Below, piece after piece: positions 3,570 through 8,640 of a stretch of 29,515 bases of DNA. The DNA comes from a virus: the IMG/VR virus record IMGVR_UViG_3300027708_000234, positions 1 to 29,515 of that record. One strand, given 5' to 3'. Made by a program: the position numbers and the translations under genes. The notes beneath the pieces were generated by a model, which was not told where the DNA came from, did not search any database, and saw only the letters and a list, made by a program, of their open reading frames with translations. How positions within the stretch are numbered: position 1 is the first letter of the stretch; every line of letters begins with the position of its first letter.

Positions 3570-5681
3570 TTAAAATTTAAACATGTCGCCGCCTAAAGAT
3601 TTAGTAGCATCCACTGTTCTACGAGTGTATTCTGCGGTTTCTTTGAGGTATTTCAACATCTCTACTGTTTGTTTATTTAATGTTTGCAGCTCAGTTCGCA
3701 AAGTTTCTAAGTGTGATAATGGTAGGATAGCCTCTGGTCCTGCTTCACCTGCTTGAATAGTAGTTGGTTTGGTAACAATACCTCCTGACGCCATTTTTGG
3801 AGTACCAAATAGTACATCTTTATTTTGATAAGCACCGTATGCACCGCCCAATAAACCACCAATTGCGCCCCCTATTGCTGTACCAATACCAGGAATAATA
3901 CTACCAATCATTGCACCTGTGCTGGCACCACTTAATGCAGAGGATCCAATGTCCAATCCTGCGCTTGTTTTAGTCATTCCGTTTTCTTTAGCATAATCAC
4001 TAGCAGCACCTAAAGCAAGTCCGCCCACAATACCGCCGAGACCACCTTTTAGTGATCCTGCCAGCTTGCCGCCCAGCCTGCCCAGCCTTTTTCCAATACC
4101 CGAACCCCCTAATCCGCCAGCACCGCCGCCGCCGGTTGGAATTTGTCCAGCAGCTTGCCGAGCACTTTTTAACTTTTGAAATGCTAGCCAGGCTATACCG
4201 GCAGCAATTAAAGATTGTACAATACCGTTTAATTTTTCAAACTGTGCCATGACCGCACTAATAATTTTAGCAACAGGATTCATTACAGCAGTTAAAAACT
4301 TGATAGCAGGCATTAAAATACTTAATATCGATTGGCCCAATTCTTGCATGGCTTTTTGATTTTCAACTGCGGACTTGGCTTCAGACGCTTGACGTTTTTT
4401 TTGTTCTTCAGTAACTGTCTTCATTTGATTTTCAGCATCTGCCGCAGTTTTAATGCCTTGTTGTTTGTTTATATTATCTTGCTTTTGTAGAGCAGACGCC
4501 ATCTGTGCATCAGGTCCCGACATCATAGAGAGCGCACTTAATAATCCTTTTCCTAAATTTGCTGTATCTTTACTAGCGCCCGCTTGAGCAGCAGCTCTTC
4601 CTTTCTCAACGTCTTTCATAGACTTACTAGTATCACCAACTGCATCGCCCATTTGTTTAATACCATTTGCAACATTAGGACCTAATGCTTGTAATTTTTG
4701 TGCAGCTTCGGTCATAGGAGGCAAACCTAATAATTGAGATTTTAATAAATCAGCACCAGCTTTGCCTCCTGTAGCTAATGCATTTTGCATAGCTAATGTG
4801 GCTTTCTTTTTACCTTCTTCATCTAACCCTTGTAAATATGCTTCATATGCAGCATTGTCACTGGCTGCTTTTAATTGCTTTTCTTGTTCTTCTCTGCTTT
4901 TACCTGTAATTGCAGCCAGAGCATCTTGCTGTGTTAAGTAAGCGCTTGCGCCTTCTGTTAATTTTGCAGTATTCTGCATTTCTTGTTTATTTCTACCGCC
5001 TGTAACTGAAAGATATCCAGCAAGTCCTTCATTGACCTGTTCAGTTGTATATCCCAATGCTCTGAGGTTATCTCCAGCTTCACTTTTTAAAAGAGAATTA
5101 CTAAGTCCGGTAAATGCCCGAGCACCTTGGTCAACAGTTCCACCTAATTTAGCAAATGTTTCACCGTTACGTTTCATTAGACCAGTAAACTGCTCTAAAG
5201 TCATATAGGTGCTGGCCGCCGCAGTTCTCATGTCGGTCAAGCTGCCGCCAAAACTAACACCAGCGTCTGTAATCTTTTGATAAGCCCCTAAGTTTTCTTC
5301 TTGAAATCTTGCAACTTTTGCAAATCCGCTTGCAACTAAACCAGCAGCTCCGGGCAATTTTGAAAAAGCATCAAATAAATCACTGCTCTTGTCAGACCCA
5401 TTGAGTAACTTGCCAGTAAGGTCCGCCATGCCTGATGCCAGTGCGGAAAATGTCTTTTTAAGATTGTCTGCTTTTTCAGCAAGATCTTTTTGGGCTTTAG
5501 CGGCAGCAGCTACAGCGGCGGTATTAACACCTGCGGCGCTGGCAGCGGAAGCAGTTGCACTAGCCGCGCCTGTTCCTCCCTGCTTCTGGACCGCCGCTAA
5601 GAGTTGTTTTAATGTAGCTTCCGTGGCTGCATTATTCAGTTCTACAAATTCGTTGCCTATTGATCCGGTGACGTCTGCCAT
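3570..5681 (-). CDS. Tail tape-measure protein
   Basis: This 703-aa protein is Ala-rich and largely helical. Near the C-terminus (about residues 630-655) it has the SGGIVTKPTTIQAGEAGPEA segment typical of phage tape-measure proteins. There is a hydrophobic stretch at about 487-506 (GIVQSLIAAGIAWLAF), and Gly/Ala-rich membrane-like segments follow at about 540-615. Coiled-coil-like Gln/Lys/Glu segments occupy about 400-450. The tape measure fixes tail length and is held in the tail lumen; T4's counterpart is gp29 (590 aa). The usual rule of about 0.15 nm per residue would give a tail of roughly 105 nm. It lies immediately upstream of the portal gene and is divergent from the gp26-like chaperone genes. 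There is no clear Shine-Dalgarno before the ATG. A small hairpin (TTATCT-ACGC-AGATAA on this strand) lies just ahead of the start. Confidence 0.8.
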   Translation of the reverse strand: MADVTGSIGNEFVELNNAATEATLKQLLAAVQKQGGTGAASATASAASAAGVNTAAVAAAAKAQKDLAEKADNLKKTFSALASGMADLTGKLLNGSDKSSDLFDAFSKLPGAAGLVASGFAKVARFQEENLGAYQKITDAGVSFGGSLTDMRTAAASTYMTLEQFTGLMKRNGETFAKLGGTVDQGARAFTGLSNSLLKSEAGDNLRALGYTTEQVNEGLAGYLSVTGGRNKQEMQNTAKLTEGASAYLTQQDALAAITGKSREEQEKQLKAASDNAAYEAYLQGLDEEGKKKATLAMQNALATGGKAGADLLKSQLLGLPPMTEAAQKLQALGPNVANGIKQMGDAVGDTSKSMKDVEKGRAAAQAGASKDTANLGKGLLSALSMMSGPDAQMASALQKQDNINKQQGIKTAADAENQMKTVTEEQKKRQASEAKSAVENQKAMQELGQSILSILMPAIKFLTAVMNPVAKIISAVMAQFEKLNGIVQSLIAAGIAWLAFQKLKSARQAAGQIPTGGGGAGGLGGSGIGKRLGRLGGKLAGSLKGGLGGIVGGLALGAASDYAKENGMTKTSAGLDIGSSALSGASTGAMIGSIIPGIGTAIGGAIGGLLGGAYGAYQNKDVLFGTPKMASGGIVTKPTTIQAGEAGPEAILPLSHLETLRTELQTLNKQTVEMLKYLKETAEYTRRTVDATKSLGGDMFKF

Positions 5682-5755: not shown

Positions 5756-6631
5756 ATGTTAACCAACGTTCCACCTATGCAACAACCAAACCCGTTAGCA
5801 TCGTTTATGAGACAACCAAAGATTTACATTAGATTGCCTAGCAATGGTGCTTACTGGCCTGCAGGTTCTATTGTTCTTACAGAAACTGGAGAATATCCAG
5901 TGTACTCAATGACTGCTAAAGATGAGTTAATGCTTAAAGTTCCCGACGCTGTTATGAATGGCCAGGCTGTGGTAGATGTTATTCAACATTGTATTCCAAA
6001 CATTAAAAATGCGTGGCAGATGCCTAATATTGATTTAGATGTTGCCCTTATTGCCATTAGACTAGCAACCTACGGTGAAAAAATGACAACACCCATTACA
6101 TTCGGTGACGACATTGAATTAGAATATACAGTTGACTTAAGAAATGTTATGGATTCTCTGCTGGCATCTATTACGTGGGATCCTGTTGTACAAGTTAGTG
6201 ATGATCTAACTGTATTTGTGCGTCCCATGACTTATAAACAGATCAGCGAAAGTGCGTTAAAAACTTTTGAAACTCAAAAGATTATGCAAGTGGTAAACAA
6301 TGATAAACTCGAAGAAAGTGAAAAATTAAAATTGTTTAAGGAAAGTTTTGGTAAACTAACTGATATTACCCTTGGCACAGTACAAGCAAGTATTTTTAGG
6401 ATTGATTCCAGCGAAGGTAGCACTGATAATCAAAAATTTATTGCTGAGTTCATTGAAAACGTTGATAACAGTATCTTTAATAAAATTCAAGAACATTTAG
6501 ATCGGTTAAGAGAACTTAATACTATTAAACCTATCATTGTCAATGTTACAGACGAAATGCGAGAAAAAGGATTTACCGGTGAAACTATTGAAGTACCGAT
6601 GATATTTGATCCTTCAACTTTTTTCGTGTAA
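5756..6631 (+). CDS. 26: Baseplate hub assembly protein, gp26-like (likely tail assembly chaperone)
   Basis: I chose the ATG at 5756 because a GGAG site (5743-5746) lies 9 nt before it; an in-frame TTG at 5714 has no such support. The protein is 291 aa. An N-terminal IYIRLPSNGAYWP segment is followed by MTAKDELMLKVPDAVMNGQA (residues about 58-77), then VIQHCIP and IRLATYG. This pattern is typical of the T4 gp26-type baseplate family. In T4, gp26 and gp51 act in assembly of the central hub with gp29. Here the gene lies divergent from the tape measure. It ends in a T TTT TTC heptamer followed by a stem, which suggests that a fraction of ribosomes shift to the -1 frame and add the gp51-position ORF, as in lambda G/GT. 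Family assignment is moderately sure; the chaperone role is inference. Confidence 0.75.
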   Translation: MLTNVPPMQQPNPLASFMRQPKIYIRLPSNGAYWPAGSIVLTETGEYPVYSMTAKDELMLKVPDAVMNGQAVVDVIQHCIPNIKNAWQMPNIDLDVALIAIRLATYGEKMTTPITFGDDIELEYTVDLRNVMDSLLASITWDPVVQVSDDLTVFVRPMTYKQISESALKTFETQKIMQVVNNDKLEESEKLKLFKESFGKLTDITLGTVQASIFRIDSSEGSTDNQKFIAEFIENVDNSIFNKIQEHLDRLRELNTIKPIIVNVTDEMREKGFTGETIEVPMIFDPSTFFV

Positions 6632-6699
6632 GGCTTTTGTATCTTGATAACGACGGTATTGACCGTGTTGTTAAAGAATACGAAAAAGATACAAAAGCC
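6619..6699 (+). promoter_or_regulatory. Programmed -1 ribosomal frameshift signal
   Basis: In the zero frame of the gp26-like gene the codons ACT TTT TTC form the classic slippery heptamer T TTT TTC (6619-6625). After a 6-nt spacer (GTGTAA, containing the zero-frame stop) comes a perfect 14-bp stem: GGCTTTTGTATCTT (6632-6645) pairs with AAGATACAAAAGCC (6686-6699). The 40-nt loop contains a further small hairpin, ACGGT-ATTG-ACCGT. Slippage places ribosomes in exactly the frame of the next ORF, which is open from 6610. The result would be a 366-aa fusion alongside the 291-aa short form. Confidence 0.8.
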
Positions 6700-6855
6700 A
6701 TAAGAGAAGAATTATTTAGACTTTGTTGGTTTATGAGAGGAGGCCTCTCATTTACTGAAGCATTTTTGTTAAGTCCCGAAGATCGAGAAATTGTTGCAAA
6801 GATTATCGAAAGCAATCTTACAGCAACTAAAGAAACCCAAATGCCGTTCTTTTAA
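6625..6855 (+). CDS. Frameshift extension, gp51-position hub assembly segment
   Basis: This short reading frame gives 76 codons if entered by -1 slippage at 6625, or 72 if started at the TTG at 6637. It reads YLDNDGIDRVVKEYEKDT, then a Cys/Trp/Met-containing helix and a LLSPEDREIVAKIIE helix, and ends MPFF. T4 gene 51 is next to gene 26, so the position fits a hub assembly partner, but length and sequence do not let me identify it as gp51. There is no ATG near the start, and the AAGG at 6630-6633 is too close to the TTG for a good ribosome site. The slippery heptamer and stem just upstream argue that it is made mainly as the C-terminal part of a gp26-like fusion. It ends tail-to-tail with the next gene, with a 4-nt overlap. 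Confidence 0.7.
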   Translation, partial: RVRLLYLDNDGIDRVVKEYEKDTKAIREELFRLCWFMRGGLSFTEAFLLSPEDREIVAKIIESNLTATKETQMPFF

Positions 6856-7763: not shown

Positions 7764-8210
7764 TGCTCTTTCGTTCGCACTCAGAGCAATTGATTACATC
7801 GTTAACGAATTAATATTATCTAGATTAATCGGTCACACTTAGCCCAGACTAGGGCTAAGAAAAAACTGGGCATTATCTGAGTAGCACAGTCACACAGCGT
7901 TAGAACTACAAGCATTGCTGCTATCACAGGCGGTTGACCGATACCTGTTCATTCTGTCTTATTCAACGGCGGCTTACAAATATACGCTATCATATTTGTA
8001 AAGCGTGGAGTTTATGTTTGTTACTCCATCCTTGGGCCTTACTTTTAACTCTATTCAAACAATCAAACCGCAGGCATTTTGCGATCGTGGTCCTGTTAAG
8101 GATACTGATTGAGCACTCTTATCGGCAAGAGTTTTCCCTCCCTGTGATCCAAGATCCAGGTTTCCGGGCACTAGAAATTAGCCAGTGCAAGCTATAACCG
8201 ATTAATTGAG
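7743..8210 (-). ncRNA. Candidate structured non-coding RNA of unknown class
   Basis: No credible gene lies here, but helices are dense. A closing helix pairs minus-strand 8206-8193 with 7837-7824: ten Watson-Crick pairs, then four more of which two are G-U only on the minus strand. This favours minus-strand RNA. Inside are a 9-bp stem (7975-7983 with 7992-8000), an 8-bp stem CTTAGCCC/GGGCTAAG (7838-7845 with 7852-7859), a 6-bp ACTCTT/AAGAGT hairpin near 8113-8131, a CCTGGATC/GATCACAGG hairpin near 8141-8160, and a GGAGT/ACTCC hairpin near 8007-8027. The RNA follows the GIY-YIG gene without a gap and ends at the terminator at 7743. I looked for tmRNA, RNase P, tRNA and group I intron core signatures and found none. 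Boundaries are approximate. Confidence 0.6.
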
Positions 8211-8211
8211 C

Positions 8212-8640
8212 CTAAATTTTGTCTTTGATGTGTGAGCCATGTATCCGACAATTTATAATACCATTATAGTAATCGTCGGATTCTAATACTTTGCGGTCGA
8301 ATTGTTCGCGGGCCTCAATGTAGGATGTTACTGCCTTACTGTTACAGTAATGCAGTATTTCTCTTGTGAAATTTTCTTTGCCTAATGTATCTATATCTGC
8401 CTGAAGATTGGGGCTACTACCCCAATATTCTTGCCAGTCCGAATCAATTTTGCTTCGAACTCGCTTTTTCTTTTTGGTGCCATTCTTGAGTTTTACTGTT
8501 TTATAGCTAGTCTTTGAAAACTTTGCTAATTTTTTGCCAATGTATTTCCTACCATTAGTTAAATTTACTATACAGTAAACATAACCAACACAATCTTCTG
8601 GCAGCTGTTCAACTAAGGTACCTTGATAGTACCATGACAT
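8212..8640 (-). CDS. GIY-YIG family endonuclease
   Basis: This 142-aa protein has the GIY-YIG signature as GYVY (residues 19-22) and KYIGKK (32-37). A Lys/Arg-rich segment (KLKNGTKKKKRVRSK) follows, then SDWQEYWGSS at 67-76. A Glu in SYIEAREQF (about residue 109) is the likely metal-binding residue, and YNGIIN lies near 125-130. Such nucleases include T4 Seg-type homing enzymes and small phage endonucleases; it is a single domain without an obvious DNA-recognition extension. It starts 3 nt after the H1-like gene stop and ends right before the structured RNA, so it is part of the early operon. Homing versus DNA-degrading function cannot be told apart from sequence. Confidence 0.85.
   Translation of the reverse strand: MSWYYQGTLVEQLPEDCVGYVYCIVNLTNGRKYIGKKLAKFSKTSYKTVKLKNGTKKKKRVRSKIDSDWQEYWGSSPNLQADIDTLGKENFTREILHYCNSKAVTSYIEAREQFDRKVLESDDYYNGIINCRIHGSHIKDKI

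Follow-up and report, generated by a model that had tools for sequence, protein, structure and literature searches.

Sequence evidence for a −1 frameshift cassette with a covarying downstream stem in a T4 gp26-like, putative tail assembly chaperone gene of an uncultivated virus

The DNA analysed here, referred to as the window, is a 29.5-kb record (29,515 nt) of an uncultivated virus. It carries a gp26-like gene whose start lies 74 bp from a divergent, tape-measure-like gene, and the 3' end of the gp26-like gene is arranged as follows:

3570..5681, minus strand: tape-measure-like gene (PHROG 794 tail length tape measure protein, E 8e-8), with a Gly-zipper
5756..6631, plus strand: gp26-like gene, putative short tail assembly chaperone (TAC-N), 291 aa, C-terminus STFFV followed by the stop
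6619..6625, plus strand: slippery heptamer T TTT TTC, in zero-frame phase as read from the sequence
6629..6631, plus strand: zero-frame stop TAA, one sense codon past the heptamer
6632..6645, plus strand: 5' arm of the stem, GGCTTTTGTATCTT, 14-bp perfect pairing with covariation in 51 distinct relatives
6686..6699, plus strand: 3' arm of the stem, AAGATACAAAAGCC, pairing with GGCTTTTGTATCTT, with covariation
6625..6855, plus strand: −1 frame extension, 76 codons and a stop, giving the predicted long form (TAC-NC, 366 aa)

The zero frame reads ACT TTT TTC GTG TAA at 6617-6631, and the heptamer is thus in phase, as a first-pass annotation made from the sequence had proposed. The remaining layout that it described also holds: the 6-nt spacer (GTGTAA, 6626-6631) contains the stop, the two arms are fully paired over 14 bp, the −1 frame is free of stops from 6610 to 6855, and the 366-aa fusion would join 290 zero-frame residues to 76 more at the predicted junction STFF-RVRLLYLD. 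The nested hairpin that it saw in the loop is a weaker point, being absent from the consensus structure of the relatives. RNA folding of 6600-6720 gave −34.4 kcal/mol (z −5.06), a value as low as which was not seen in any of 200 shuffles. In-frame heptamers of the general form X XXY YYZ are common, with 39 across the window's ORFs; T TTT TTC occurs in frame only once, at 6619-6625, and the 6632-6699 stem is the window's only 14-nt perfect inverted repeat with a loop of up to about 60 nt. A −1 frameshift cassette in the gp26-like gene is well supported.

The gp26-like product belongs to the T4_baseplate family PF12322 (31.8 bits, above the cutoff of 24.5; E 1.5e-7) and matches PHROG 150 baseplate hub (E 9.5e-12). 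The fold predicted for this product (pLDDT 83.6) matches those of T4-like proteins for baseplate hub assembly (E 5e-21, TM 0.84), and the named matches among viral models are mainly T4-like baseplate hub proteins. Fold searches of the PDB gave no significant match for the window protein, including no solved chaperone of the HK97 gp13 type, and nothing useful for a T4-type gp51. For T4, a review counts gp26 and gp51 among the chaperones of hub assembly; it states that the final particle contains no gp51, and that genetic studies support the presence of gp26 in the hub (PMC3004832). The tail-chaperone role put forward at first pass, a predicted function, is well supported by the PF12322 family, the hub-assembly fold and the tape-measure neighbour. 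As the T4 gp26/gp51 proteins are listed as chaperones, and given the neighbouring tape measure gene and the fold match, a pair of the lambda G/GT type seems to be the best reading of the locus. The fold also matches uncharacterised proteins of about 440-690 aa (E 6e-8 to 8e-4, TM about 0.5 by query) from Erwinia phages Special G and phiEaH2, Ralstonia phages RSF1 and RP12, and Achromobacter phage Motura; these large-phage proteins are possible chaperone relatives.

A scan of IMG/VR returned 80 uncultivated relatives at 63-100% identity, which make up the window's clade. The heptamer, the stop and the −1 extension are kept in all 80, an agreement that led us to reject a pseudogene or a sequencing error. 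In 79 the heptamer lies 9 nt before the stop, with the same FFx-stop spacing, and the −1 frame runs for 73-74 codons beyond the stop. The 80th (L060) has a TAA at position 737 inside its gp26-like gene, either an assembly error or a true nonsense change, with the frameshift cassette intact downstream. The slippery site is TTT TTC in 61 of 61 distinct genes, and TTC accounts for 16% (105/645) of the Phe codons elsewhere in the gp26-like gene; since the counts at the site include related sequences, we attach no probability to them.

The alignment of these relatives, which the first-pass annotation had proposed as a check, shows an invariant heptamer followed by a stem that covaries. Among 51 distinct sequences the covariation score of the stem is 0.187, against 0.083 after shuffling (none of 500 shuffles reached the observed value) and at most 0.066 in slid controls. 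Standard pairs make up 91.6% of the stem, and both partners have changed at 8 of the 14 pairs. The most variable pairs are the inner ones, with the stem base GGCTTTT/AAAAGCC nearly fixed. The distance from heptamer to stem is 3 nt in 27 of 54 sequences and 6 nt, as in the window, in 25; the shorter spacing arises in many members because the stop TAA itself pairs with TTA (TAAGGC...GCCTTA). The 75 nt downstream fold with a median z of −5.6, versus −0.4 elsewhere in the gp26-like gene.

These features bear on two explanations that dispense with ribosomal slippage at the heptamer. A strong hairpin at the end of a gene might be a terminator or processing site with no role in frameshifting, but the stem is not followed by a T run, it lies inside a −1 frame under purifying selection, and it begins 3 or 6 nt past the invariant heptamer in 52 of the 54 sequences; we give this explanation almost no weight. 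The six-T run at the slippery site raises a second explanation, in which RNA polymerase slips on it and changes the frame. Six Ts are a short run for transcriptional slippage, however, and the invariant final C and the codon phase fit tandem tRNA slippage instead; the covarying downstream RNA stem would be a ribosomal stimulator. We regard polymerase slippage as highly improbable.

The −1 frame encodes a protein domain that is under purifying selection, with pN/pS of 0.42 in that frame versus 0.84 and 1.31 in the other two (58 sequences). The peptide of the window's clade is homologous to the −1 peptides of the isolated jumbo phages Phosso and Atu_ph07, and it matches the jumbo-isolate −1 profile with E 2.5e-20. 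Profile comparison with the T4 gp51 C-terminus detected no link (E 0.08), and jumbo-isolate and cyanophage −1 peptides match each other weakly (E 0.012); we infer the relationship of the clade's −1 domain to T4 gp51 from its position and a weak motif resemblance.

Such a domain could instead be the product of a separate gene, with TTG 6637 or an internal ATG serving as an independent start or as a point of re-initiation. Many relatives have a separate small ORF annotated here, and in Cygsa01 an ATG that overlaps the gp26 stop would suit a separate start. Against this, the window's AAGG is just 3 nt from TTG 6637. The codon at that site is TTA instead of TTG in five of 54 relatives, in four relatives none of the first 20 codons is a start codon, and the earliest ATG that the commonest patterns share comes at codon index 36, midway through the −1 domain. 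In three sequences altered at the stem position of the TTG site the partner has changed too and the pair is kept. Because the start is lost while the pairing is kept, the candidate start is expendable and the stem is not; on these grounds we rejected a separate start, which we consider very unlikely.

Beyond the window's clade, we compared isolated jumbo phages whose proteins are about 25-32% identical to the gp26-like product. In-frame T TTT TTC, 9-39 nt before the stop and with a −1 extension, is kept in 12 of them: Phosso, Atu_ph07, PA5oct, RaK2, 121Q, CBB, GAP32, XaC1, pEa47, Munch, Vibrio 2.275 and SCTP-2. XacN1 and RAS14 have the U7 form T TTT TTT instead. The stem is clearly kept only by Phosso (z −4.6) and Atu_ph07 (z −7.1) among these isolates and is absent as a conserved feature from most Enterobacteria jumbo phages. 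In the cyanophage set, RNAalifold gave no consensus pair and thus no conserved downstream stem. The stem is therefore clade-specific. Distant jumbo phages have thus retained the heptamer and mostly lost the stem, and the heptamer itself is lost in Cygsa01 and PhiSH19. Homologues that lose the heptamer or the stem, named at first pass as grounds for abandoning the proposal, occur outside the window's clade, and the proposal stands.

The heptamer extends well into other T4-like lineages. All 80 cyanophage-type gp26 loci retrieved read T TTT TTC NNN stop, and the preceding codon varies (AGT, TCT, GCT, GGT, AAT, GAT) but is always T-final (78 distinct genes). T TTT TTC is likewise separated from the stop by one codon in S-BM1, DSL-LC02, Ah1 and the KVP40-like VH7D, and in Aeromonas 65, Cronobacter S13, PX29 and YB07; an Aeh1-type record (L184) has both the heptamer and the −1 frame. 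Pelagibacter phage HTVC008M has T TTT TTT TAA, and P10VF has T TTT TTG. In S-BM1 the annotated gp51 maps to this part of the genome and is encoded by the −1 frame. Cygsa01 (L099, near 2307) and the Ackermannviridae phage PhiSH19 (L200, near 1939) still encode the domain in the −1 frame, with no X XXY YYZ heptamer near the gp26 end, which in both reads ATT TTC AYY TAAT; since the heptamer is absent and the domain kept, these phages likely use another route to the long form. In the cyanophage loci (L102-L182) a purine-rich GAGGG or GGAGGG often lies about 8-13 nt upstream of the heptamer, a spacing compatible with an anti-Shine-Dalgarno contact that could stimulate −1 slippage.

T4 itself differs: its genes 26 and 51 form a divergent pair, and no heptamer stands at the end of gene 26. 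T4 gp51 matches PF12322 over residues 1-201 (E 3.9e-52) and gp26 over 7-204 in a profile comparison (E 2e-16). It also aligns end to end (6-248) with a conceptual fusion of cyanophage gp26 and its −1 peptide (E 2e-12), better than with cyanophage gp26 alone (E 5e-6), and there is a match between its C-terminus and the cyanophage −1 peptide (E 1.7e-6). These comparisons indicate that T4 gp51 is paralogous to gp26 and has the C-terminal domain in addition. The first-pass term of an ORF in the gp51 position needs correcting to this extent: T4 gp51 is more than a bare ORF of that kind. The fusion alignment fits a remark made in 2010, according to which cyanophage gp51 has just some 20% of its normal length and is similar at the C-terminus (PMC3037559). 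The same note names Aeh1 as the sole case lacking gp51 (PMC3037559), beside which we set the heptamer and −1 frame of the Aeh1-type record.

According to papers that cite it, a 2022 study identified the T4-like gp26/gp51 pair as tail assembly chaperones (Vladimirov, Gautam and Davidson 2022, Virology 566:9-15, via PMC10885494 and PMC12846349), and it is credited with the poly-T slippery sequences of T4-like chaperone genes (PRFect, PMC10885494). We ourselves take the T4 pair meant there to be gp26/gp51, reading those papers together with the profile comparison. The first-pass doubt whether the pair is generally described in this way has thus been overtaken, since the citing papers place the chaperone pair in 2022, and from the PRFect summary of that work both this kind of frameshift and the gene pair are already known. 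Our literature search turned up no paper that names frameshifting for gp26/gp51 or for jumbo phages of the RaK2 type. Insofar as the 2022 paper can be judged through those citing it, the present analysis adds members from jumbo phages and from fresh water, the covarying stem beside the stop codon and the wide reach of the census.

As in lambda G/GT, slippage into the −1 frame would occur towards the 3' end of a chaperone gene that lies close to the tape measure gene, and would yield a minor, C-terminally extended product (PMC5009743), which in the window is predicted. Unlike lambda, the window's gene has the heptamer T TTT TTC followed by a 14-bp stem and is divergent from the tape measure gene, not upstream of it on one strand; no sequence similarity of the window gene to lambda-type chaperones was found. 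With T4 gp26 (short) and gp51 (long) it shares the PF12322 family and the short and long forms with a common N-terminal part, but the window has one putative frameshift gene where T4 has two divergent genes without a heptamer. The cyanophage, KVP40-like and Aeh1-like gp26/'gp51' loci share the heptamer T TTT TTC at one codon from the stop, and a gp51-like domain in the −1 frame; that domain is shorter than the window's (about 56-66 codons past the stop), and in cyanophages the conserved stem is lacking. A conserved −1 frameshift has likewise been inferred from an uninterrupted −1 frame for the chaperones of Vandenendeviridae and Andersonviridae, which are other phage families with a GTTTTT motif (PMC12846349).

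Taken together, we think it very probable that the gp26-like gene is a tail-assembly-chaperone frameshift gene of the lambda G/GT type. Most ribosomes would terminate at 6629-6631 and produce a short chaperone of 291 aa. A minority, held up by the stem that lies 6 nt further on, would shift from TTT TTC onto TTT TTT and continue as CGT GTA AGG..., giving a 366-aa product with an additional C-terminal domain. By analogy with lambda gpG and gpGT, the short form would coat the tape measure protein, the rarer long form would recruit tail tube subunits, and both would be absent from the virion.

A 2016 review described G/GT frameshifting as conserved in long-tailed phages 'except T4' (PMC5009743). 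That exception looks narrow, as most T4-like lineages sampled keep the signal and T4 appears to have replaced it with two genes. We somewhat favour a history in which the T TTT TTC frameshift is ancestral for the T4-like lineage including the jumbo phages, the T4 pair arose by duplication and fusion, and the stem, which can include the stop, was added by one freshwater jumbo clade. Many database entries split one frameshifted chaperone into a 'baseplate hub' protein and a hypothetical protein or 'gp51', and others omit its second part; both kinds can now be re-annotated. The natural variants of the covarying stem could also be used to measure how stem and spacer control the level of frameshifting.

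About 1.4 kb past the chaperone gene and on the opposite strand, the window contains a Polynucleobacter-1 RNA (Rfam RF01718, 104.5 bits; 8057-8193, minus strand). As the record is a fragment, freshwater origin and jumbo size are inferred from the relatives and from this RNA. It is present in 11 of 20 relatives searched (L002, L003, L006, L010, L016, L027, L030, L047, L066, L071 and L075), there too on the strand opposite to the chaperone gene, a recurrence that points to an element carried by these phages. Directly adjoining it is a gene for a SegE-like GIY-YIG endonuclease (8212-8640, minus strand; PF19835, E 5e-32).
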